Assembly (NCBI RefSeq): GCF_002214185.1 | Contig: NZ_CP022161.1 | Coordinates: 10,609,486-10,673,485, forward strand | Reading direction: 5' to 3' | Source: Streptomyces capitiformicae | Lineage (GTDB): Bacteria > Actinomycetota > Actinomycetes > Streptomycetales > Streptomycetaceae | Length of the DNA: 64,000 nucleotides | Part shown: positions 2,970 to 18,793 of the stretch, piece by piece | Position numbering within the stretch: position 1 is the first letter of the stretch | Layout: every line of letters starts with the position of its first letter | Made by a program: the position numbers and the translations under genes | Notes under the pieces: generated by a model | Database searches by the model: none | The model's input: the letters and a program-made list of their open reading frames with translations, nothing else | Told to the model about the DNA's origin: nothing

Positions 2970-3170
2970 AACTCCCAGGGGGGCATGACGGCATCATCTC
3001 CGCCCCAGGCCCAGTTGCCGCACTGCTCGAGTCCCTTGTTGCCTGAGCGTGCCTGAGGCGGATTCGGCCGGCCGGCGGAGGTGGTCGGCGATGCCCGGTG
3101 CGTCACCCATGCTCGACTCCGGCGGGCCGAGACGCAGGTCAGGCTTGGGCACCAGAGCTGGGAGTTCTGG

Positions 3171-4616
3171 TCACAGGGGAGATGTCTGGTGCCGACTCGC
3201 GACTGCCGTGAACGACTCTCCACGGGCGCCGCGGCCGACGCGGACAAGCGCCAGGTAGACGACCGAGGTGACCACCATGCCGGGAATCCAGGACAGGTCG
3301 GCGTTGGAGAAGTGTCGCGCGATGGGCCCGACGTACCACGCGTTGCTCATGGCCGGAATGCCGGACACCACGCCGACCACGAAGGCAATGAGGACCTTGA
3401 GGTTGACCCCGTTGTGGGTCCATGTGGCCGGGTCGCTCCAGTACTTTCCGCTGCGGATGTACATGCCGGGGACGTCGTACTCTCCGTGCTGGACGAGGTA
3501 GAAGTCCACGAGGTTCACCGCACCCCAGGGAATGAGCAGCAGGAGCAGGAACGACAGGAACGCCGTCAGATTGCCGGTGAAGTCCTGTGAGGCCGTGACG
3601 GCCAGGCCCAGACCGATGACGAGGGTCGGCAGCATCATCGCCGCACGGGTCCTGAACGAGTTCGAAATCTTGACGAAGGTCGACAGGCCCGTGATCAGGT
3701 TCAACATCCCGCCGTAGAGGTTGAGCATGTTCGTCACAGCCAGGCCCAGCGCGGTCACCACCAGGACGACAGTGGCGAGGGCGCCACCGCCGAGCGCGGC
3801 ACTGGTGCTCTGGAAGACGTCCGCGGCAGCGAACTTGGCCGCGAGCAGCACACCGACGACGCAGCAGAAGGTGGACGACAGGAACACCCCGGCCGCCGTC
3901 CACCAGAAGACCGCCCGGCCTGACGCGTCGCTCGGCAGGTAGCGAGAGTAGTCCGAGACGGCGGTGGCGTAGGTAAGTGCGAACGTCACGGCGACTCCGG
4001 TGCCGGCGAGGAACGACGCGAGCGACACCGGACCGGACGTCGCCGCCACGTCACCCCCTCGGACGAGCGTGTAGCCGCTGACGACGATCAGGCTGATGGC
4101 GAGCGGCCACGTCGCGTAGCGGGCGACGACGTGGATGGCTCGGTTTCCCATCAGTGCGGGGAGCACGCTCAGCGCGGCGATCAGACAGATGGCCAGGGGC
4201 AGCGGGATCCGCCCTCCTGTGGCCACCTTGAGCGCGATACCGCCCGCGAGCGAGACCGAGACCGTGAATCCGACGTACATGACGGACCCCACGACGACGG
4301 GTACCAGGGCGCCGAGGTATCCGAACTGGCCGCGGCTCTGGATCAGTTGGGGAATCCCCAGCCTGGCGCCCTGGATCGAGTGCAGGGCCATGAGGACGGT
4401 CCCGACGAGGTTCCCGATGACGGCGGCGAGCAGCGCCAGCGGGATGTTGCGGCAAACCGAGTAGATGATCGCGCCGAAGATGGCGTTGCCCACGTTGAGG
4501 TTGGAGGCGAACCACACGTGGAAGAGGTCGCGGGGGCGGCCTCTTCGGTGGGATTCGGGCACCGGATCGACGTGATGCAGTTCGATCCCGGCTTCAGTGG
4601 TGGGTGTTCCGGTCAT
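3171..4616 (-). CDS. NCS1-family permease (cytosine/purine/hydantoin type)
   Basis: A 481-residue integral membrane protein of the nucleobase-cation symporter-1 family, with about 12 hydrophobic segments and the family length. Diagnostic stretches are the N-terminal NLNVGNAIFGAIIYS and the loop IPQLIQSRGQFGYLGALVP near residues 90-110, followed by ATAVSDYSRYLP and the GVLLAAKFA region. It begins 15 nt after the stop of the kinase-aminotransferase fusion gene, the last step of a minus-strand operon. NCS1 proteins import nucleobases, hydantoins, allantoin or related heterocycles with Na+ or H+. Here the neighbours suggest uptake of a nitrogenous substrate used by the fusion enzyme and amidase. 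The substrate cannot be read from sequence. Confidence 0.85.
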   Translation of the reverse strand: MTGTPTTEAGIELHHVDPVPESHRRGRPRDLFHVWFASNLNVGNAIFGAIIYSVCRNIPLALLAAVIGNLVGTVLMALHSIQGARLGIPQLIQSRGQFGYLGALVPVVVGSVMYVGFTVSVSLAGGIALKVATGGRIPLPLAICLIAALSVLPALMGNRAIHVVARYATWPLAISLIVVSGYTLVRGGDVAATSGPVSLASFLAGTGVAVTFALTYATAVSDYSRYLPSDASGRAVFWWTAAGVFLSSTFCCVVGVLLAAKFAAADVFQSTSAALGGGALATVVLVVTALGLAVTNMLNLYGGMLNLITGLSTFVKISNSFRTRAAMMLPTLVIGLGLAVTASQDFTGNLTAFLSFLLLLLIPWGAVNLVDFYLVQHGEYDVPGMYIRSGKYWSDPATWTHNGVNLKVLIAFVVGVVSGIPAMSNAWYVGPIARHFSNADLSWIPGMVVTSVVYLALVRVGRGARGESFTAVASRHQTSPL

Positions 4617-4631
4617 GGGCTCTCATTCCTT

Positions 4632-7600
4632 TCACGGGCAACCTTGCGTGGTCGTGGGATGCCGGTGAACCGATCGGGTCATGGCCATGCGGGACTGTGC
4701 CCGCTCCTCGAGCACTCGGGTGAACTGGGCGAGGAAGTAGTCGGCTGCCGCGTTGTCGAAGCAGAGGGGTGGCTTGATCTTCAGGACGTTGAGCTCGACT
4801 CCGGTGGGTTGGATGACGACACCGAGTTCGAGCATGCGTTCGCAGATCTGGGTCGCGGCGGCGGGTGCCGGCTTCTTGTCCGCGCCCGGTTCGACGATGT
4901 CGACACCGCGGTAGAAGCCCTCCCCATAGACTGCACCGATCTCGGGGAAGCGTGCGGCCAGGGCGTTGAGCTCTGCGCCGAGGTGCGTACCGACCGTGCG
5001 CGCGTTCTCCGGCAGGCGTTCGTCACGCAGGACGTCGAGGACTGCCGTACCGACCCGGCACGAGACCGGGCCGCCGCCGGTGGAGGAGAAGAATCCTGCT
5101 CGTCGGCCGAACTCCGCCGCGATCTCGGGCCGGCACGCCACGACACCGATGGGATGTCCGTTGCCGGTCGCCTTCGCCGCGACGACGATGTCGGGGGTCG
5201 CGCCCTGGCCTTCGAACGCCCAGAAGGCCGACCCGGTCCGCCCCATCCCGACCTGGATCTCGTCGGCGATGCACACTCCGCCCGCCTCGCGAACGGCGGC
5301 GTAGGCGCCGGCCAGGTACCCCGGCGGCGGCACGATTCCTCCCTGGCTGCCGAGCAGGGGCTCGGCCACGAACGCGGCCACGCCACCGCCCGGGCCGGCT
5401 TCGGCGCAGGCTCGCCTCACGGACTCCAGATACGGCTCCACCCGCGCACCGTGCCGTCCCCGGTACGGGTCGGGCGTCTCGGCGACGTGGACGTGTTCGT
5501 CGAGCTCCTCACGCCAACGCGGGCGGTCATGGGGAAGCGTGTCCAACGCGAACACGTCCGAGGTCCAGCCGTGGTAGGCGCCTTCGATGACGACCACCGA
5601 GCGACGCCCGGTGTAGACACGGGCCAGTTGGACGGCGAGATCGACGGCCTCGCTGCCCGAGTTCACGAAGAAGAAGGTGTGCAGTTCCTCGGGCAGGGTG
5701 TCGGCGAGCCGTTCCGCGTACTCACCCATGGCGTCGTACAGGAAGCGGGAGTTGGTGTTGAGCAACGCCATCTGCCGAGCCGCCGCCGAGGTGGGTGCGG
5801 GGTGGGAGTGCCCGACGACGGCAACGTTGTTGATCAGGTCGAGGTACCGTCGGCCCGCGCTGTCGTAGAGCCAGTGCCGCCAGCCCCGGACCATCTGCAC
5901 GGGAGTCTCGTAGTACGTCGACTGGGCGCCGGCCACGTACTTGGCCCGGCGCTCATGCACGCGTTCGACCGCTTCCGCGTGCTCCGCCCTGGTGGGCGTC
6001 CCGACGAGCGGTGACGGGTCCGCACAGAGCGTCAGGAGGGCCGCACGGTCCCGGACCCGGCCGTAGCCCGGCAGGTCGGGTGAGAGCCCGAGCTGCACGT
6101 GGACGTGGGAAGGCAGCGGGCCGGCCGACGGTGCGACCAGCGCGACCTCGGCACCACGGCGCACGGTGTGCCCGACGGGGAAGTGCGAGGCCACTCCGGC
6201 GAGCCGGACGAAGAACGTTGTGGTGTCGACGCGGCTCTGCAACACGACGGCGTGAGCATCGGCCCGGACCACCGTGGCGTCGAGCGGAGCGTAAACCGCG
6301 GTGCCGGCTGGGACGAGCAGGTCAGCACCCAGGTGCAGTGTGGCGGGCGCCTGGTCGGTGAGGTCGGGCTCACCGAGGCGGATCTCGTCGAAGCGCCCGA
6401 CGGCCACCTCCGCGGCGGATCCGAGCGGGGGGAAGGCCGCGCCATCCAGCCAGTTGCCCGCCGAGAACAGCTCCGACTCGACGCTCAGATCGACCGGCCG
6501 GAGCGGACCGAACTCCTGGTCGCGGAGGATCGGGCTCGGCGACTGCCGGGCGACGAGATCGGCCAGGTCGGTCTCCGGTGCGCCGAAACCGCAGGCCTGG
6601 CGCACCACCGCTGTGGCGAGCGCCGGGTCGATCTCCACCACGGCCCGCAACGCCCGCCAGTCTTCGGCGGCGACCTTGGCCGCCCCCTCGTCATCCGGAT
6701 CCTGGTGCGACGCGACGGTCTGGAGCGCCGCGCAGAGCGCGGCACGCGCACGGACCAGCGTCCAGACCGCGTCCGCCTCGGCCTCGGCCAACGGCAGCCG
6801 ATCGAGGTATCCGGCAAGGACGGGCAGCGCCGCCCCTAGTGGGTCCTCGGGCGCACGTGCGACGGCGGCCAGCATCGGCGTCGCGACCTCGCTGGCCCGC
6901 CAGGTCCACACCAGGTCCCCGAAGTCGATGATCCCGGTCGGGACGAACCCTCCGTCGGCATCGAAGTCACCGACCACGTTGTACTCGTGGATGTCGGTGT
7001 GCACGGCCTGTTCCGGCAGTCGCCCGGCGGTCCCGCCGCCGACGAGCTCGGCCACCGGAGCGAGTGCCTGATCGATGAGCGCGTTCTCCGGGCCCGTGAA
7101 GTGATCGGTGAGCCCGGACACGGTATGGACCGCGTGGCGCGGATCCCACAAGGAGTGGCGGTGCAGCCCGGGGTGGTCGAACCCGGCGAGTGCGGTGACC
7201 GATCTCGCGGCCAGTCGGCCAAGGCCGCGCAGCGCCGTCGGCGAGAGGTACGCGACGGAGCCCAGCGGTGCGCCCGGAACCCAGTTCAACAGCCGCACGC
7301 GGAGCCCGGTGCGGTCGACCAGGTCGTGGTCCTGCAGCGTCGGGACGGCTTCCGGCACCACGAGACCCGGATCCAGGGACCGGAAGTGACGGACCGCCAG
7401 GTGTTCGGCGTGGACTGCCTCAGCACCGCCCTCGGCCAGGGTCGCCTTCAGGACGTATCGGCGCCCGTCACTGTCGTCCTCGACCAGCATGACCTGGTCC
7501 TGGGTGCTCCCCAGGTCGGTGAGCCGACCGGTGATTCCCCATTCCTCACGCAGGAGGCGGGTCGCGTCCTGCTCCGACAGCATCGGGCCGGTGAAGGGGG

Positions 7601-7661
7601 CGGCTGAGGCGGCCACGTCCACCGTGCCTTCGTCGGTGAACGACCGTTGTGCCTCAGCCAT
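4632..7661 (-). CDS. Kinase / M23-like / class III aminotransferase fusion
   Basis: A 1009-residue three-part enzyme. Residues about 30-370 are an aminoglycoside-phosphotransferase-type kinase with the catalytic HTDIHEYN (221-228) and metal-binding IIDFGD (244-249). Residues about 430-550 resemble an M23 metallopeptidase, with HxGxD (H443, D447) and HVH (519-521) zinc-ligand motifs. Residues about 565-1000 are a class III PLP enzyme with NSGSEA (667-672), ADEIQ (D800) and the PLP lysine in VVAAKATGNG (K830). In vertebrates, separate APH-type hydroxylysine kinase and class III phospholyase act in sequence, and bacterial fusions of the two are known. That supports a kinase plus phospholyase acting on a hydroxylated amine, which is inference. 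The start overlaps the amidase stop by 8 nt, so the two are translationally coupled. No signal peptide, so cytosolic. Confidence 0.85.
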   Translation of the reverse strand: MAEAQRSFTDEGTVDVAASAAPFTGPMLSEQDATRLLREEWGITGRLTDLGSTQDQVMLVEDDSDGRRYVLKATLAEGGAEAVHAEHLAVRHFRSLDPGLVVPEAVPTLQDHDLVDRTGLRVRLLNWVPGAPLGSVAYLSPTALRGLGRLAARSVTALAGFDHPGLHRHSLWDPRHAVHTVSGLTDHFTGPENALIDQALAPVAELVGGGTAGRLPEQAVHTDIHEYNVVGDFDADGGFVPTGIIDFGDLVWTWRASEVATPMLAAVARAPEDPLGAALPVLAGYLDRLPLAEAEADAVWTLVRARAALCAALQTVASHQDPDDEGAAKVAAEDWRALRAVVEIDPALATAVVRQACGFGAPETDLADLVARQSPSPILRDQEFGPLRPVDLSVESELFSAGNWLDGAAFPPLGSAAEVAVGRFDEIRLGEPDLTDQAPATLHLGADLLVPAGTAVYAPLDATVVRADAHAVVLQSRVDTTTFFVRLAGVASHFPVGHTVRRGAEVALVAPSAGPLPSHVHVQLGLSPDLPGYGRVRDRAALLTLCADPSPLVGTPTRAEHAEAVERVHERRAKYVAGAQSTYYETPVQMVRGWRHWLYDSAGRRYLDLINNVAVVGHSHPAPTSAAARQMALLNTNSRFLYDAMGEYAERLADTLPEELHTFFFVNSGSEAVDLAVQLARVYTGRRSVVVIEGAYHGWTSDVFALDTLPHDRPRWREELDEHVHVAETPDPYRGRHGARVEPYLESVRRACAEAGPGGGVAAFVAEPLLGSQGGIVPPPGYLAGAYAAVREAGGVCIADEIQVGMGRTGSAFWAFEGQGATPDIVVAAKATGNGHPIGVVACRPEIAAEFGRRAGFFSSTGGGPVSCRVGTAVLDVLRDERLPENARTVGTHLGAELNALAARFPEIGAVYGEGFYRGVDIVEPGADKKPAPAAATQICERMLELGVVIQPTGVELNVLKIKPPLCFDNAAADYFLAQFTRVLEERAQSRMAMTRSVHRHPTTTQGCP

Positions 7662-9087
7662 GGTGCCCCAGCTTCGGCCGCCAGTCCGGGTCGCTCCAGA
7701 GGCCGAGACGTGCTTCGGCGGCCGCCCCGAGGCGGAACGCGGTCAGATCGTCGAACGGTCGGGCGACGATCTGCACGCCGGTCGGCACCCCGTTGCCCGC
7801 GCGACCCGAGGGCACGTTGAGGACCGGATGGCGGCTCGCGATGTTGAAGAGCTGGGTCAGGCACTGGCTCACGAGGTTGGCGAACTGCACGCCCACGGCG
7901 AGCTCGACGGATTCCGCGGACGTGGCGTCCGCCGGGTAGCCGGTGGTGGCCATGGTCGGGCAGATGATGGCGTCGTGGTCGCGGTAGATCTCGGCGAGCA
8001 CGGCGTGCATGCGGCCTTCCTCTTCCGCGATCCCCAGGGCGCCGACGTTCTCCAGGGCTGCCCCACACGCCTCGACGACATCGAGGACGTTCCGGGACCA
8101 GCGCGGGTCGTCAGCCGGCGCCCACTCCAATACGGACGGCCCGAGGAGGAGGCCGTAGTGCGCCATAGCAGTGGCCATGATCGACTGACGGGTGATCGGG
8201 ATCTCGACCGGCGTCACCTCGGCTCCGGCGTCCCGCAGGGCGCTCGCGAACCGCTCGATGTTGGCCGCCGCCTCTGGGACGATGGGGAAGTCACCGATGG
8301 TGACCGCGAGCGCGACCTTCAGTCCCGCACACGATCCGAAGGTCGTCGGGAGCGGTGGAGCAGCAGGTACCGAGACGTGATCGACGGGGTCCGGTCCGGC
8401 GATGACGTTCTGGAAGAGAGCACAGTCAGTGACCGTGCGGGCCATCGGCCCGTCCTGACAGTAGGTGTCGAGACTGAGCGGCGGCAGCGACGGCACCCGT
8501 CCGTAGGGGGGTCGGAACCCGACGACGCCACACAGAGCCGACGGAACCCGGATGGAGCCCGCGATGTCGGAGCCGGTGGCCAGTGGGGCGAGTCCGGCAG
8601 CCAGTGCCGCACCCGAGCCGCCCGACGAACCGCCGGGGCTGTAGTCGAGGTTCCATGGATTGCGTGTGACGCCCCACAGCTCGGAGTGGGTGGTCACGGC
8701 GATCGAGAACTCCGGCGTCGTGGTCCGCAGGTGCAGGACCGCACCGGCGTCGATCAGTCGCTGGACCATCGGTTGCGTCTGCGTCGCGACGTTGCCTTCG
8801 GTCAGCAGGGAGCCGAAACGATGGGACCTGCCGGCGATCGGCATCTCCTCCTTCACCGCGACCGGGACGCCTTCGAGCGCCCGGGGCGCCGGGCCCTTCC
8901 CCGCGTACCTGGCCTCGGCGGCCCGCGCGACATCGTGGGCCTCGTCGAACATCTCCTCGGCGACCGCGTTGACCTCACTGGTCTTGGCGACCCGTTCGAT
9001 CAGCGAGTCCAGGACTTCCACCGGGGACAGCTCGCGCCGCCGAAACGCCCCCAGCATCTCGTCGGCCGACAGATAGTTCAGGTCCAT
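7654..9087 (-). CDS. Amidase (amidase-signature family)
   Basis: A 477-residue amidase-signature hydrolase. The Ser-cisSer-Lys triad is visible: Lys79 in VAVKEEMP, the cis-Ser in PGGSSGGSGAALAAG (about 151-165), and the nucleophile Ser178 in GSDIAGSIR. It hydrolyses amide bonds and releases ammonia or an amine; the family also includes GatA-like and allophanate hydrolases, but no GatB/C partner is present. No signal peptide is seen, so it is cytosolic. It is the second gene of the minus-strand operon, 61 nt downstream of the SDR gene and overlapping the fusion enzyme. The ATG is preceded by a purine-rich AAGAGGAGCG-like site about 6 nt upstream. Confidence 0.88.
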   Translation of the reverse strand: MDLNYLSADEMLGAFRRRELSPVEVLDSLIERVAKTSEVNAVAEEMFDEAHDVARAAEARYAGKGPAPRALEGVPVAVKEEMPIAGRSHRFGSLLTEGNVATQTQPMVQRLIDAGAVLHLRTTTPEFSIAVTTHSELWGVTRNPWNLDYSPGGSSGGSGAALAAGLAPLATGSDIAGSIRVPSALCGVVGFRPPYGRVPSLPPLSLDTYCQDGPMARTVTDCALFQNVIAGPDPVDHVSVPAAPPLPTTFGSCAGLKVALAVTIGDFPIVPEAAANIERFASALRDAGAEVTPVEIPITRQSIMATAMAHYGLLLGPSVLEWAPADDPRWSRNVLDVVEACGAALENVGALGIAEEEGRMHAVLAEIYRDHDAIICPTMATTGYPADATSAESVELAVGVQFANLVSQCLTQLFNIASRHPVLNVPSGRAGNGVPTGVQIVARPFDDLTAFRLGAAAEARLGLWSDPDWRPKLGHHG

Positions 9088-9148
9088 CCTTCGCTCCTCT
9101 TGGCGATGGGCAGCACAGGCAAACTAGAAAAAATGGGCGAATAGCGGG

Positions 9149-9961
9149 CTACTGCGCGAACAGCGCCAGGGGACCGCCTGCCGGGCTCAGTCCGCGCTCC
9201 TCCTGGATGGAGTTGCCGCCGTCCACCACGAACAGCTGTCCCGTGACATAGGACGACTCCGGCGAGGCCAGGAACGCCACCAGTGCGGCCACCTCATCGG
9301 GACGCCCGGCACGACCGACCGGCGTTGCCGCCCCGAGGGCGTCGACATGCTCGTCGAGTCCCCCGGTCGCGATCCAGCCGGGCGCGACGGCGTTGACCGT
9401 GATGCCCCGTGAGGCCGTGTCCATGGCTGTCGAGCGGGTGAGACCGATCAGGCCGGCCTTGGCCGTGTGATAGGCGACGTCGCCCTTGTAGGCCATCACC
9501 GGACCCGAGAGCGACGACATGTTCACCACCCGGCCGTACCCTCGGTCGAGCATCGGCTGGAGCGCGGCGCGGGTCATGTGGAACGTGGTGTCGAGGTTTC
9601 GCGAGAGGGCCGAACGCCACTGCTCGTCGGAGGCCGTCGCGAGGCTGGACGGGTCTTCGGGCTCGGCCACCGAGACCATGCCGGCGTTGTTGACGAGAAC
9701 GTCGATCCGGCCGAAGGCATCCAGCGCCTCGGCCACCACCGACTCGGCGAACCTGGGATCGGTGAGATCGCCTGCGACCCCACGGACGGGGCAGCTCCCC
9801 GCTAGCTCGGCCACCCGCTCGTGAATCCGCCCGGTGGTCGAGGTGATCAGCAACGAGTAGTCGTCGGCCAACCGTTTGGCGCAGGCGAAACCGATGCCGG
9901 ATGCACTGCCGACCCCGGTGATGACCGCAACGGGCCGGCCGTCGGCGTTGGTCGGGTTCAT
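9149..9961 (-). CDS. SDR-family oxidoreductase
   Basis: A 270-residue classical short-chain dehydrogenase/reductase. Visible features are the nucleotide-binding [11 protein letters not shown] (14-24), NNAG (91-94), catalytic Ser near 150, and YHTAK with Tyr164 and Lys168. The C-terminal [12 protein letters not shown] is typical of FabG-like enzymes. It oxidises or reduces an alcohol/carbonyl using NAD(P)H; the substrate is unknown. It is the first gene of the minus-strand operon with the amidase, fusion enzyme and permease, and is divergent from the TetR gene. In that context it may act on a hydroxy or keto product of the pathway (inference). Confidence 0.9.
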
Positions 9962-10273
9962 GTGGTGCTCACCCTCGAATCCCTGGACGCCTCATGGCGT
10001 GACTGAGTTGAACGTTCGTCACAGTAGGGGAATCAAGGCTGCGCGGCAATGGTCAGTTCACCTGCATTTCAAGGGAACTGAACCGTTACGGATCCGAGCA
10101 GGGTGGCCGACTTTTCTTGATCTGAGTGGTACGTTCGTTCCAGTTCCAACGGTCAAGGGACAGGATGCCGCGGCGCACCACACAGGCAGGTTGCCCCCCG
10201 ATTGCTACCGTGCGGCCATTGCCGTCGTGCGACGCCCGGCGGTCACCCACAGGCGAGAAGGACGACGACATTC
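9962..10273. promoter_or_regulatory. Divergent promoter region with candidate TetR operator
   Basis: This 312-base region separates the minus-strand operon from the plus-strand TetR gene and must hold both promoters. An inverted repeat GGTCAGTTC (10051-10059) / GAACTGAACC (10075-10084) lies at its centre, and ACGTTCGT occurs twice, near 10012 and 10132. TetR regulators commonly bind palindromes between themselves and the genes they control; assignment here is inference. Confidence 0.45.
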
Positions 10274-10918
10274 ATGAGCCGGCCCGGCGAGTCCGCCCAG
10301 CAACGAGACACCCCTGTCCTGACCGAGCGCGGCGGGGTCCGCAAAGCGGCCATCCTCGAAGCAGCCCTGCGGGTCATCGGGAACAAGGGACTCGCCGGGC
10401 TGTCCATGCGTGCCATCGCGGCGGAAGCGGGGCTGCCGCTCGGAGCTCTCGGCTACTACTTCAAGACCAAGGACGATCTGATCCTCGATGCGTTCGAGTT
10501 GCACACGCGCCGGGAGGCGGACCGGGTCCTCGCCGCCTTCGCGGGTGTCGAGAACGGCGACCATGCCGACGACATCGCCGAGCACCTCACGGCGTTCATC
10601 CACCACGGGCTGACCGAGGCACGCACGAGCCTGGTCGCGGAGTACGAGTTCCTGATCGAGTCAACCCGCAGGCCGGATCTCGAACGTGTCTCGCGGGCGT
10701 GGCGCCAGGCGCTGCAGATCCAGGTCAGCCATGTCGCGAGCCGGCTCGGCTCGGACGATCCCGAGACAGACTCAGAGATCATTCTCTCGGTCATCGCGGG
10801 TCTGGAGATCGACCACCTCTCCACACCGCTCGACCCGTCGACGACGCAGGCGATCCGCACCGCACTCCGCCGCACGATCACAAAGCTCGGGCTCCGCGGC
10901 AACGCCGCGCGGCAGTAG
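10274..10918 (+). CDS. TetR-family transcriptional regulator
   Basis: A 214-residue TetR regulator. The N-terminal helix-turn-helix spans about residues 18-65 (KAAILEAALRVIGNKGLAGL, then IAAEAGLPLGALGYYFKTKDDLI). The C-terminal domain (YEFLIESTRRPDLERVSR, SVIAGLEIDHLSTPL) is the TetR_C_6-like ligand pocket. I chose the ATG at 10274 because GAGAAGGACGA lies about 10 nt upstream; the frame stays open for 24 codons further up without a better start. It diverges from the SDR-amidase-fusion-permease operon and is its most likely repressor. Confidence 0.88.
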   Translation: MSRPGESAQQRDTPVLTERGGVRKAAILEAALRVIGNKGLAGLSMRAIAAEAGLPLGALGYYFKTKDDLILDAFELHTRREADRVLAAFAGVENGDHADDIAEHLTAFIHHGLTEARTSLVAEYEFLIESTRRPDLERVSRAWRQALQIQVSHVASRLGSDDPETDSEIILSVIAGLEIDHLSTPLDPSTTQAIRTALRRTITKLGLRGNAARQ

Positions 10919-11090
10919 GTCCCATCCCGGCAGTCCGAACGAACGACACCTCTCCGTGTGGCTCGGCGGCATCGCTGATCTCGCCTGCCACTCACCGCCG
11001 ACGAACGCGGTCAGCGGCAGAACCCGGGACACCCGACCGGTCGAAGACGCACGCCTGAGCGCACTCGGCTCGGGGCGGTACGCCCAGGTC

Positions 11091-11503
11091 ATGAGTGAGC
11101 GACGTCCGTATCCCAGTGATCTGTCCGATGCCCGCTGGGAGTTGATCGAGCCGGTCCTGGCGGCCTGGCGCTTTGAGCGCCGCGGCCGGGGCCTGGACTT
11201 CGGGCGTCCGCCCGAACACGAACTGCGCGAGATCATGAATGCGATCCTCTGCGTGGACCGCACCGGCGTGCAGTGGCGCCACCTGCCGCATGACCTCCCG
11301 CCCTGGGAGACGGTCTACGGCTACTTCGCGAAGTGGCAGAAGGAAGGGGTGTTTGCCCAGCTCAACGGCCTGCTGCGGGAGTTGGTGAGGCAGAAGGAGG
11401 GGCGGAGGGCGGAGCCGTCGGCCCGCGTGATCGACGCGCAGAGCGTGAAGACCTCCACCAGCGCCCCCGCCACGAGCCAGGGCACGGATGCGGGCAAGAA
11501 GAC
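11091..11503 (+). pseudogene. IS5-family transposase, N-terminal part
   Basis: Begins MSERRPYPSDLSDARWELIEP and continues through IMNAILCVDRTGVQWRHLPHDLPPWETVYGYFAKWQKEG-type sequence to VIDAQSVKTSTSAPATSQGTDAGKK, where the first catalytic Asp (VIDAQSVKTS) is present. After AGKK the expected IVGRKRH continuation is lost and the sequence runs into an opposite-strand IS110 remnant. About the first 138 residues remain; nonfunctional. Confidence 0.88.
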
Positions 11504-11522
11504 ATCCGATGCGAAGAAGGAG

Positions 11523-12139
11523 TCAAGCGGCCAGGGTGAGGCGGGGTTCTTGAGAGGCTGGGAAGGCCACAGCCTCGTTGAACGGGACGCGGTGAGAAAG
11601 ACAGTGGTGAAGGCAGCCGATCATCCGGTTGAAGAGGTTCCTCTGTGCGGCCGTGTGGCGATCTCCGGCCTCACACCGACGGTCGTAGTGGGCCCGCGCT
11701 CCTTCCGAGTGGGCCATCGCTGAGAAAGCCCACATGTAGCCGACGCCGGCCAGCCTCTGGTTCTTCACTCTGCGGGCCGCGACGGACACGCTCTTGCCGG
11801 AGGCCCTGGTGACGGGAGCGGATCCCGCGTACGCCTTCAGACCTCTGGCGTCGGCGAACCGAGTCCGGTCGTCGCCAATCTCGGCTAGAACTCGGGCCCC
11901 GCTGAGCGGGCCGAGTCCAGGAAAACTGGTGATGATCTCGGCGTCAGCGTGGGCCTCGAACGCCCGCACTGCGGCTTCGGCGAGGTCATCGGCGCTTGCG
12001 CACGCGGCTTCCAGTTGCCGTAGCAGCGCAAGTGCTTGGCGTCCCATGGCCTCCTCGACCAGGGGGAGATGGCGCATCTACGGAGCGCGAAGCGCGCCGT
12101 GCAGACGCTCGACTTCCCTGTCGATTGAAGTTTCCCCGT
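11523..12139 (-). pseudogene. IS110-family transposase, C-terminal part
   Basis: The minus strand encodes the IS110 C-terminal Transposase_20 domain: ITSFPGLGPLSGARVLAEIG, LKAYAGSAPVTRASGKS and KNQRLAGVGYMWAFSAMAHS. Upstream in the same frame IDREVERLHGALRAP is followed by an in-frame TAG before MRHLPLVEEAMG. The N-terminal DEDD catalytic domain is missing. It is wedged between an IS5 piece and a CBM13 remnant. Confidence 0.85.
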
Positions 12140-12159
12140 GATCTTGGACACTCGTTCGT

Positions 12160-12515
12160 TATGCCGCGAGGGCGTGTTGGTGCCGCTGTCTGGTCTCGGC
12201 CGGTGTGGCGCCGTCCGCCGTGGAGGACCCGGCGACGTCGAGGACTTTGCCGCTGTGGAGGCAGGTGATGGTGTGGTAGCCGTCCGAGGTCGACTGGAAG
12301 GCCCAGTGCTGGTTCGGTCTGCCGTTGTCGGGCCACTGGATCACGGCGGCGCCGTCCGCGTTCGAGGCGCGGTAGACGTCGGCGACCTTGCCGCTGCGCA
12401 CGCTGACGCATGTGTAGGCCCTGGTGGGGGCGATGGTGTACTGCACCGAGTCGATGTCGACGTGGCCGGTGCCGCCCGGGTTGTAGGTGTAGAGGCCGAC
12501 CCGGTCACCGCGGTA
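12160..12515 (-). pseudogene. GH43-type tail with truncated CBM13 (ricin) domain
   Basis: The minus strand reads RVGLYTYNPGGTGHVDIDSVQYT, a sequence typical of the C-terminal beta-sandwich of GH43 glycosidases, then a ricin-type beta-trefoil segment (AYTCVSVRSGKVADVYRASN, GRPNQHWAFQSTSDGYHTI, GKVLDVAGSSTADGATP) that stops abruptly beside the IS110 remnant. Only one and a half of the three trefoil repeats remain. Upstream it is joined in frame to a protein-arginine deiminase fragment, so this is a chimeric pseudogene. Confidence 0.7.
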
Positions 12516-13160
12516 GCCGCAGTGCACCTCGCCGCCGCCGACGTGGTGCGTGCGCCAGTCGTTCAGGTAGCGCACCCGCATGCCGGCCTTGGCGTACGCC
12601 TTGGTCACCGCCTCGGCGAGGATGTCCTTGCCGCCGATGACCGGGCCCCACTGCTTGGGGGCGAGGTAGGTGGTGGGGGGTCAGCGTGACGCCGCTGACG
12701 GCGCCGGGGTGGTAGGCGATGACCGCAGGGTCCTGCGCTCCGGGGGAAGTCACCGAAGTCGACGTACATCGCCGGGATCTTCACGATCTCGGCGTCCGTG
12801 ACGCCGGTCTCGCGCTTCAGCAGCGCCAGGTTCTCCTTGATCTTCCGGACCGCGTAGGCGTTGGACTTCAGCAACTGCCGGTCGGACAGGGCCTGGTCGA
12901 TCGTCAGAACGCGGTCGTCGGCGTAGGAGCGCGGGATGGAGAACGCCTTCGTGTGGCCGTGCCCGTCGCGTTGCGCCTTGCGCAGCAGGGCGAGCCCGCC
13001 TTCCGGGTCGGCGATGCCGATCTTCCAGCCGCGCGGGGTGTCGGCGGGCAGGAACTGCACGAACTCGTCCACGTGACCGACGCCTAGCCATCCGGTCTCC
13101 AGCACCAGCGGGTCCTGCGCCTGCTGGGCCTTGAGGAAGCCCGTGTGCGCAGGCAGCCGG
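12515..13160 (-). pseudogene. Protein-arginine deiminase, C-terminal fragment
   Basis: The last third of a peptidylarginine deiminase family protein. GWLGVGHVDEFVQFLPADTP and GHGHTKAFSIP carry the conserved GHVDE region, and THHVGGGEVHCG carries the catalytic cysteine. Two frameshifts, near 12747 and 12675, separate the pieces VDFGDFP, QDPAVIAYHPGAVSGVTLTP and YLAPKQWGPVIGGKDILAEA. The first 400 or so residues of the usual enzyme are absent. PADs convert peptidyl-arginine to citrulline; bacterial secreted members occur in Streptomyces. Not functional as it stands. Confidence 0.8.
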
Positions 13161-13376
13161 CAGCCGTGCCGGAGACGGCCGCCAAGGCGATCGCCAACGC
13201 TGTCGCCGCCTTGAGGCTCTGCCAACATGCCGGCGTCGCGGTGCCCGGTACGCACGTCTGCCGCGTTGTCGTCGGTGACCGACCGCGGAGAAGGCGGCAG
13301 CGTCCGGTCGTGCGACGGCGAGCCCCTGCCGGCCGGAAGCCGATCGTCGCTGCTGGAGGCGGACTACGGTCGTGTC

Positions 13377-17281: not shown

Positions 17282-18793
17282 GTGCCCGCTCAGAACCGGC
17301 CCGCCCGCGCGGCCAACCCCGTGCTCCCGGGGTTCCATCCTGACCCGAGCATCTGCCGGGTCGGCGACGATTACTACCTCGCCTGCTCCAGCTTCGAGTA
17401 CTTCCCCGGCGTACCCCTCTTCCACAGCCGCGACCTGGTGCACTGGCGGCAGATCGGGAACGCCCTGGACCGGCCGGAGCAGTTGCGTCTACCGGCCTCC
17501 ATGCCGTCCTCGGGCGGCATCTACGCCCCCACCCTGCGCCATCACGACGGCCGTTTCTGGTTGATCGTCACCAACTGCAGCGAGGGCGGCGGCAATCTGA
17601 TCGTCACAGCGACCGACCCGGCCGGACCGTGGTCGGATCCGATCCCGGCACCGGGCGTGCCCGGTATCGATCCCGACCTGGCCTGGGACGAGGACGGGAC
17701 CTGCTGGTGCACTGTCGCCGGGGTGTCGCAGGTCCGTATCGACCCGACGACCGGGGAAACATACGGGACACCGCACAGGCTCTGGTCCGGCGGGCCCGGC
17801 GCCAAGGCCCCGGAGGCACCTCACCTTTACCGGATCGGCGACTACTGGTACCTGCTCATCGCCGAGGGGGGCACCGAGCGCGGCCACGGCGTCTCGATCG
17901 CCCGCGGCCGTACGCCGGGCGGCCCGTTCGAGCCGTGCCCGGCCAACCCGATCCTGACCCACCGGGGCACCGACCACCCCATCCAGAACACCGGCCACGC
18001 CGACCTGGTCCAGGCACCCGACGGCTCATGGTGGATGGTGCTGCTGGGCGTACGGCCGGGCGGCGGCACGCCCGGCTGGCACGTGCTCGGCCGGGAGACC
18101 TTCCTGGCGCCCGTGACCTGGGAGGACGGCTGGCCGGTCGTCGGCGAGGTCACCTTGGACCTGTCCGCGCTCCCCTGGCCGCTCTCCCCCGCCTCCGCCG
18201 AAGACCGCCGCGACGACTTCGAGCTGAGCGAACTGGGCCCGACCTGGATCTCTGTGCGGGACCGCCCCGCCGAGCTCTGCACCACCAAGGAGCGCCCCGG
18301 ATGGCTGACGCTGCACGCGCGGGGCGGCTCCCTGGACGAGCCCGACGTGGTGTTCACCGGCCGCCGCCAGCAGCACCTCACCTGCCGGGCGCGCACCCTG
18401 GTCGACCCGGAGCAGGGGCGCGGCGGCCTCGCCGTCCGGCTGGACGAGCGGCACCATTACGCGATCGAGGCGTCCGGCACGGAGGTACGCGTGATCGCGC
18501 GCGTCGGCTCCCTGCGCACGGTCGTGGCCGAACGCACCGTGCCCGCCGAGCCGGTGGTCCTCGGTGTCACGATCACCGACCCGCCGCCTCCGCACGGGCC
18601 GTGCACCGGACCCGACGTCGTCTCCCTCGGGGTCGAGGCCGCGGACGGCACGTTCACCGAACTCGCGGCCCTCGACGGCCGCTACCTGTCGACCGAGGTC
18701 GCCGGCGGCTTCACGGGCCGGGTCATCGGCGTGTACGCGGCTGCAGGCACCGTCCACTTCGACTGGTTCGACTACGAGCCTCTGGACAGCTGA
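17282..18793 (+). CDS. GH43 beta-xylosidase / arabinofuranosidase
   Basis: A 503-residue intracellular GH43 enzyme (subfamily 11/12-like layout). The five-bladed propeller (about 1-300) opens with NPVLPGFHPDPSICRVGDDY, whose Asp is the catalytic base, and contains PGIDPDLAWDEDG and the acid region APEAPHLYRIGDYWYLL with the catalytic Glu. A C-terminal beta-sandwich (about 310-500) ends AAGTVHFDWFDYEPLDS. It trims xylose or arabinose from xylo-oligosaccharides. I chose GTG 17282 because GAAAGGA lies about 10 nt upstream; an in-frame GTG at 17261 is possible. Likely cotranscribed with the GH36 gene. Confidence 0.9.
   Translation: MPAQNRPARAANPVLPGFHPDPSICRVGDDYYLACSSFEYFPGVPLFHSRDLVHWRQIGNALDRPEQLRLPASMPSSGGIYAPTLRHHDGRFWLIVTNCSEGGGNLIVTATDPAGPWSDPIPAPGVPGIDPDLAWDEDGTCWCTVAGVSQVRIDPTTGETYGTPHRLWSGGPGAKAPEAPHLYRIGDYWYLLIAEGGTERGHGVSIARGRTPGGPFEPCPANPILTHRGTDHPIQNTGHADLVQAPDGSWWMVLLGVRPGGGTPGWHVLGRETFLAPVTWEDGWPVVGEVTLDLSALPWPLSPASAEDRRDDFELSELGPTWISVRDRPAELCTTKERPGWLTLHARGGSLDEPDVVFTGRRQQHLTCRARTLVDPEQGRGGLAVRLDERHHYAIEASGTEVRVIARVGSLRTVVAERTVPAEPVVLGVTITDPPPPHGPCTGPDVVSLGVEAADGTFTELAALDGRYLSTEVAGGFTGRVIGVYAAAGTVHFDWFDYEPLDS

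Follow-up and report, generated by a model that had tools for sequence, protein, structure and literature searches.

A five-gene Streptomyces cassette with a kinase-phospholyase fusion, predicted to act on an amide of an amino alcohol

Five genes and a pair of operator-like sites

The stretch analyzed here (referred to as the window) covers 64,000 nucleotides of Streptomyces capitiformicae at 10.61 to 10.67 Mb of a single 10.99-Mb contig (NZ_CP022161.1) and carries, ca. 0.37 Mb from one end of the contig, a cassette of five genes. Four of them follow one another on the minus strand and encode a short-chain dehydrogenase/reductase (SDR), an amidase-signature hydrolase, a fusion of kinase, M23-like, and pyridoxal phosphate (PLP)-dependent lyase domains, and an NCS1-family permease, with a TetR-family regulator gene lying opposite on the plus strand. 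All frames were found intact at the positions given in an earlier note on this DNA, which had described a four-gene minus-strand operon opposed by a TetR gene, including the 8-nucleotide (nt) overlap between the amidase stop and the fusion start (7654 to 7661); 15 nt separate the fusion from the NCS1 gene and 61 nt the SDR from the amidase gene. The minimal conserved cassette, i.e., the blastn extent shared with Streptomyces scabiei 87.22, runs from 3169 to 10951 (no strand assigned). It is a real, conserved, and self-contained cassette, predicted from its sequence to be catabolic and to use a variant of known chemistry.

Pfam and NCBIfam searches confirmed the NCS1, class III aminotransferase, amidase, SDR, and TetR families. 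The SDR, first gene of the operon (9149 to 9961, minus strand, 270 amino acids), matched PF13561 with 193.6 bits and has YxxxK and NNAG in its translation; no relatives were detected in the viral contigs searched. The amidase (7654 to 9087, minus strand, 477 amino acids) matched PF01425 in Pfam with 273.3 bits, and its segments GGSSGGSGAA and AGSIRVP align with the signature core of the 6-aminohexanoate-cyclic-dimer hydrolase 3a2p; which of its residues make up the Lys-Ser-Ser triad is our assumption. The permease, last in the operon (3171 to 4616, minus strand, an open reading frame of 481 amino acids), matched PF02133 with 153.9 bits (cut-off of 23.5), stayed under the cut-off of the nucleobase:cation symporter model TIGR00800 (115.9 of 353.1 bits), and gave weak matches to the thiamine-precursor and allantoin permease models of NCBIfam. 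It is probably an importer, and its orthologues (E ≤ 1e-110) were found, among 394 genomes of the class, in its own genome only. Two names that might have hinted at a substrate, a "trigonelline permease" among the NCS1 homologues and a low-ranked pyridoxal dehydrogenase model for the SDR, were too weak to be used.

The regulator (10202 to 10918, plus strand) matched PF17940 with 74 bits and TetR_N with 48.2 bits. Its annotated frame opens at a mechanical TTG, and in the Streptomyces ureilyticus copy a single-base gap falls between this TTG and the ATG at 10274; because a longer coding start would not tolerate such a gap, the ATG is the likelier start. Two copies of an imperfect palindrome, operator-like site 1 (10003 to 10025) and site 2 (10122 to 10144), neither with a strand, lie between the TetR and SDR genes. 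They are conserved with at most two mismatches in all five copies of the cassette that keep this region (the window, S. ureilyticus, Streptomyces stelliscabiei, S. scabiei 87.22, and Streptomyces sp. NRRL WC-3618), and the DNA between them diverges among copies. Over the whole 10.99-Mb genome, exact matches to the motif occurred only at these two sites, and allowing up to three mismatches added a single place, equal to a reversed-pattern control. Since the motif is confined to the cassette, TetR regulation is probably local to it, with both sites as predicted operators.

The kinase-phospholyase fusion protein

The fusion gene (4632 to 7661, minus strand) encodes 1,009 amino acids that matched the curated NCBI family NF004800/PRK06149 with 1210.5 bits (cut-off of 973) over amino acids 23 to 987, and its AlphaFold2 model has a mean confidence (pLDDT) of 90.5. 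Family members have the same domain order over the whole length. Thus, the domain make-up first proposed for this gene holds, but the protein is not new, being a member of NF004800. A search of ca. 5.8 billion proteins, with 7,995 candidates scored, returned at least 2,793 proteins of similar length at E ≤ 0.001, not all of which were checked as fusions. Among the best 120 of these, seven (one of them partial) were 84 to 94% identical and all named Streptomyces, and the others were 44 to 56% identical. Despite these numbers the family is still labeled "aminotransferase," and our literature searches found no paper on its function.

Amino acids 1 to 390 (6492 to 7661, minus strand) are assigned, by conserved catalytic residues and fold rather than by Pfam, to an intact APH-type kinase core with predicted activity. 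Kinases of this type carry an HxDxxxxN motif and DxGD-type catalytic residues. In 125 aligned sequences, counted after leaving out the partial rows P0008 and P0032, residues D223, N228, D246, G248, and D249 were present in all and H221 in 117. PF01636 was not reported in the window fusion at E ≤ 0.001 in Pfam, and it is precomputed for many relatives. All entries in the list of fold matches were kinases of the APH-type fold, led by homoserine kinase, aminopropanol kinase, amicoumacin kinase, and N-acetylhexosamine kinase. The aminopropanol kinase 6ef6 ranked second in Foldseek, with 22% identity, and eighth in VIA-align, behind N-acetylhexosamine and homoserine kinases.

The M23-like part (amino acids 442 to 524; 6090 to 6338, minus strand) had been named M23 in the earlier note. 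Family M23 binds its metal through an HxxxD and an HxH motif, and all four ligands (H443, D447, H519, and H521) are present in the window fusion. However, the PF01551 match reached only 26.1 bits, under the Pfam gathering score of 28.7, the metal set was complete in 69 of the 125 relatives and incomplete in 56, and position 486, which we take to be the site of the M23 catalytic histidine, is Arg in 104 and His in 6. An active peptidase is therefore unlikely, and the part probably is a pseudo-peptidase with a structural role.

The C-terminal domain (amino acids 560 to 1009; 4635 to 5984, minus strand) has as its nearest solved relatives the human ethanolamine-phosphate phospho-lyase ETNPPL (6tor, 43% identity) and the Arthrobacter phospholyase A1RDF1 (5g4i, 36%). 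Both of them are stand-alone enzymes, unlike the window enzyme, which is fused to a kinase, and the Asn that precedes a PVS stretch in both is aligned with a Gly in the window fusion. The PLP-binding lysine K830 is kept in 125 of 125 sequences. By sequence, phospholyases scored 347 and 270 bits versus 174 and 172 for a racemase and GabT, and in a tree of 24 hand-picked sequences, with no characterized phospholyase among them, the lyase clade had a support of 97/92 and stood apart from the four further class III enzymes that the tree included from this genome. Sequence, fold, and tree place the domain as kin of the PLP phospholyases (EC 4.2.3.2 type) rather than of transaminases. If it were instead an ordinary class III transaminase or racemase, with the operon degrading an amide made from an amino acid or a diamine and the kinase acting elsewhere, neither these scores nor the branching would be expected, and a kinase core kept throughout the family would be left unexplained, which makes this alternative unlikely. 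The best reading of the fusion thus stays the one of the earlier note, a kinase joined to a PLP-dependent enzyme that eliminates phosphate. According to a 2021 paper (PMC8154272), the class III lyases documented before it comprised only ethanolamine-phosphate phospho-lyase and one close relative.

The same genome was found to hold two further fusions (38 and 36% identical to that of the window) as well as one pair of separate kinase and lyase genes. The 38% paralogue (L025) scored above the window fusion against NF004800, with 1400.8 bits; it lies at 8.13 Mb (9376 to 12363 of the extracted locus) and adjoins genes for an Lrp/AsnC regulator, a PLP decarboxylase, an agmatine-deiminase-like protein, and urease. 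The separate lyase and kinase at 7.60 Mb (8889 to 11375 of locus L027) are accompanied by genes for a HAD hydrolase and for a KR/carrier/reductase protein, an arrangement reminiscent of a biosynthetic cluster. Outside this genome, a rhizobial fusion (7182 to 10886 of locus L029) adjoins a hutC-type repressor gene, and hutF and a gene for a histidine ammonia-lyase lie in the vicinity. More generally, the other NF004800 members examined adjoin Lrp/AsnC, hut, or transport genes, whereas that of the window adjoins amidase, SDR, and NCS1 genes.

Neighbors of the Lrp/AsnC and amino-acid transporter kind, seen for some relatives, would suit a fusion acting on hydroxylysine or another hydroxy amino acid, with amidase, SDR, and permease serving a precursor of the peptide-like or lactam type. 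The hydroxylysine kinase and phospholyase of vertebrates work in sequence in this manner. We regard this explanation as improbable, given that the nearest solved lyase is a phosphoethanolamine enzyme, although the PDB matches listed included no hydroxylysine enzyme to compare with it, and that the Lrp-type paralogue of the same genome would be a more natural hydroxy-amino-acid enzyme. Hydroxylysine kinase and PHYKPL were also missing from the fold matches listed, which excludes nothing.

One unit in changing surroundings

Searching for related loci, we recovered five (L009 to L013). All five genes are present in S. ureilyticus (L009), S. stelliscabiei (L010), and S. scabiei 87.22 (L011), in a single conserved block of 7.8 to 8.1 kb that is 89.5 to 96.3% identical to the window (89.3 to 96.3% over all pairs of the four copies by blastn; 91 to 97% for the NCS1 permease). 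Compared with L009 and L010, the block extends ca. 0.1 to 0.2 kb beyond the part shared with L011. The flanks of the four complete copies, compared over ca. 4.6 kb on one side and 6 to 7 kb on the other, contained no further match of >150 bases between any two. The five genes form one self-contained unit, and this is more than chance, because three further named species keep them together in flanking DNA that is not shared. Each of the four operon genes was compared between complete copies, with TetR left out; in all 12 comparisons the third codon position carried the largest share of the differences, and in 11 it carried more than half, which suggests that selection acts on these genes.

The remaining two loci have decayed. 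Streptomyces sp. NRRL WC-3618 (L013) keeps TetR, SDR, and amidase, with a broken and short fusion; there, between 8001 and 12005 of the locus, the broken copy is followed by an Lrp gene and then by a different fusion gene of the L025 type. Streptomyces europaeiscabiei (L012) retains ca. 1 kb spanning the amidase/fusion junction and, after it, ca. 17 residues assigned by eye to the permease, and shares with the window one 796-bp match outside the cassette (17888 to 18683). Orthologues were rare, with only the genome of the window among 246 genomes drawn from the genus (E ≤ 1e-200), and this same genome plus one at 42% among 396 drawn from the phylum (E ≤ 1e-190), draws that need not include the species of the five loci. 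No megablast match beyond 48 bases to the cassette was found in the plasmid collection.

We do not claim recent horizontal spread from DNA identity alone, given that the S. ureilyticus cassette is 96% identical to that of the window, but two blocks in its right flank (urease; amidohydrolase/LysR), which are located elsewhere in the window's genome, are 94 to 95% identical too. In that species the cassette lies ca. 3 kb from a block homologous to the urease genes beside L025. The left flanks of the S. ureilyticus and S. stelliscabiei copies had no long match in the window's own genome, and the right flank of the latter matched several places in it at 80 to 91%. No terminal repeat of 11 nt common to the copies was seen. 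Only the changed surroundings of the cassette remain.

Scab-species names stand on 6 of 12 carrier entries (S. stelliscabiei, S. scabiei 87.22, the S. europaeiscabiei remnant, Streptomyces griseiscabiei, and two S. scabiei proteins), the entries being the five loci and seven listed proteins, with possible overlap between both lists. Since the carriers also include S. ureilyticus and Streptomyces without a species name, the names do not establish a link to disease. These names would nevertheless agree with a role in detoxification, in which amidase and kinase inactivate an antibiotic or a plant defense amide and the phospholyase clears the product, as would the TetR control through a private operator pair and the amicoumacin kinase and aminoglycoside phosphotransferases among the fold neighbors of the kinase. 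Such a role seems rather unlikely to us, however, as the transporter belongs to a family reported to import, elimination of phosphate recovers ammonia, which fits catabolism, and in related loci the lyase is found with permeases, urease, or aldehyde dehydrogenase.

A predicted catabolic route and its counterparts elsewhere

We consider it probable, judging from the gene families and their arrangement, that the cassette serves the catabolism of an amino alcohol, or the matching amino ketone, supplied as an amide or N-acyl derivative. TetR would keep the cassette off through the two conserved operator-like sites, and the NCS1 permease would import the compound. The amidase would cleave the amide and free a primary amine, and the SDR would interconvert ketone and alcohol, either turning an amino ketone into the amino alcohol or handling a carbonyl product. 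The kinase domain would then phosphorylate the hydroxyl beside the CH2-NH2 carbon, and the fused PLP domain, as its phospholyase kinship suggests, would eliminate the phosphate and release ammonia to give an aldehyde. Fusion may allow the phosphorylated intermediate to be handed between active sites, with the M23-like part most likely acting as a structural linker with a vestigial metal site. An amino-alcohol kinase followed by an amino-alcohol phosphate phospho-lyase has reportedly been known in bacteria since the 1970s.

Gene groups in which similar functions are encoded separately were found elsewhere. Shell-protein genes were present in 26 of 374 genomes of the class, and 12 of the 13 shell loci examined had an SDR together with a class III enzyme. 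One of them (L047, genome G595) has SDR, amidase, and choline-kinase-like genes in order on one strand, with genes for two shell proteins, a phospholyase-like enzyme, an aldehyde dehydrogenase, an SSF transporter, and a GntR-type regulator nearby, and may possibly encode a microcompartment for an amide-derived amino alcohol. With its lyase as the query, 12 of 121 genomes of another actinobacterial family (its own included) gave matches, and around these lyases, in stretches of ca. 20 kb each (11.5 kb for L080), we found an amidase in 3 (L047, L078, and L081) and an SDR in 6, with a seventh SDR (L074) at a weak E value. L078 is a compact operon of SSF transporter, M20 hydrolase, amidase, APH kinase, choline-type kinase, and phospholyase genes, and L081 repeats this order, with kinases and transporter recognized by tblastn. 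L072 has SDR, APH kinase, and lyase together, so that an SDR, an APH- or choline-type kinase, and a phospholyase were combined at two loci (L047 and L072); within the 20 kb of L077, lyase and SDR are joined by an NCS1-like gene (25.5%). Like the cassette, L047, L078, and L081 bring amidase, kinase, and phospholyase together, although as separate genes; all three have an SSF transporter (L078 and L081 also the M20 hydrolase) where the cassette has NCS1, and only L047 has an SDR. The tie of amidase and SDR to the fusion thus gains some independent support, the amidase from L047, L078, and L081 and the SDR from L047 and L072. With such small counts, and SDRs being common in actinobacteria, we rate the support as moderate for the amidase link to the kinase-phospholyase pair and as weak for the SDR link.

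A precedent for much of the gene set is the RMM1 microcompartment locus of Rhodococcus and Mycobacterium, for which the 2014 microcompartment taxonomy gives hydrolases, a phosphotransferase, an SDR, a permease, a regulator, and an aminotransferase, and in which RMM2 was interpreted as amino-alcohol degradation (PMC4207490). Two pathways with a transaminase step were proposed in a 2019 paper (PMC6620236). The 1-amino-2-propanol (RMM/Aut) loci resemble the cassette in SDR, APH-type phosphotransferase, class III enzyme, permease, and regulator, with hydrolases in RMM1 (PMC4207490, PMC6620236). The kinase fold is similar to 6ef6, a possible relative, but shell proteins (PF00936) were not found in the window's genome at E ≤ 1e-8, and RMM/Aut has a GntR regulator and an amino-acid permease, whereas the cassette has TetR and NCS1 and no aldehyde dehydrogenase. 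In the tree, the class III enzymes of shell loci L045 and L050, the only ones from shell loci included and labeled RMM by ourselves, branch far outside the phospholyase clade, a placement that bears on whether RMM uses a phospholyase of the cassette kind. In view of the RMM1 precedent, the statement of the earlier note that it knows of no named pathway with this gene set is not supported as worded, whereas its reading of the fusion as a kinase with PLP-dependent phosphate elimination is supported by kinship, residues, and fold, so that its interpretation holds in part. The chemistry is of a known type; the five-gene combination as one unit is new here.

Several observations weigh against the proposed route. 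NCS1 permeases are known for nucleobase-like ring compounds and not for amino alcohols, the cassette lacks an aldehyde dehydrogenase, the SDR is nearest to generic FabG-type reductases with a family-level match only, and the kinase matches are likewise family level, with 22% identity at best. The kinases of L047, L078, and L081 have no significant BLAST similarity to that of the window, and an SDR near half of the 12 lyases means little by itself, such enzymes being so common. Within ca. 8 to 10 kb of seven other fusion genes (three paralogues of the same genome and four on plasmids; tblastn, E ≤ 1e-10, 120 amino acids), neither amidase nor SDR was found, and the same was true near the fusion of L070; the neighbors, whose lack of conservation had been named as grounds for doubt, are therefore conserved within the Streptomyces set and not at these other loci of the family. 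A rhizobial fusion (L028) has a weaker SDR match nearby (E of 9e-9), and on a plasmid of R. qingshengii an amidase (48%) lies ca. 8 kb and an annotated SDR ca. 12 kb from the fusion gene, in separate operons with Lrp. Conversely, none of five loci anchored on relatives of the amidase (46 to 53% identity) had a fusion gene, and SDR, NCS1, kinase, and lyase were all absent from the five.

That amidase and NCS1 homologues have other neighbors elsewhere, and that the SDR is generic, could also mean that the genes are only loosely related, as nitrogen-scavenging functions under a common regulator and not one pathway. This appears very improbable in the face of the tight spacing with an overlap, the retention of all five genes in different surroundings, and the grouping of the same gene types with free-standing phospholyases elsewhere.

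A more specific version of the catabolic route is that an independently moving cassette lets potato-scab streptomycetes exploit the hydroxycinnamoyl amides that plants make from octopamine-type amines, which we see as a long shot. Wounded potato leaves contain feruloyl- and coumaroyl-octopamine (PMC11885807), and octopamine bears the CH(OH)-CH2-NH2 group that the route requires. The amidase would free octopamine, the kinase would phosphorylate it, and the lyase would yield 4-hydroxyphenylacetaldehyde, ammonia, and phosphate. Against this, import of octopamine amides would be unusual for an NCS1 permease, and the S. scabiei suberin literature consulted makes no mention of octopamine, tyramine, or amidase. 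If true, it would be a new route for the breakdown of a plant wound amide.

Equipped with an importer, a hydrolase, a redox enzyme, and a private regulator, the cassette is a small system whose substrate could be found by induction, the compound that releases TetR from the two operators probably being the substrate or an intermediate. Its identity would help to assign a function across the fusion family and to correct the label.

Next to the cassette, 0.6 kb past its TetR end, the window contains a piece of an IS110-type transposase gene (11523 to 12077, minus strand). Beyond it, two frames on the minus strand (12605 to 13255 and 12159 to 12608) match protein-arginine deiminase (PF03068) and ricin-B lectin and resemble one split gene (12159 to 13255).

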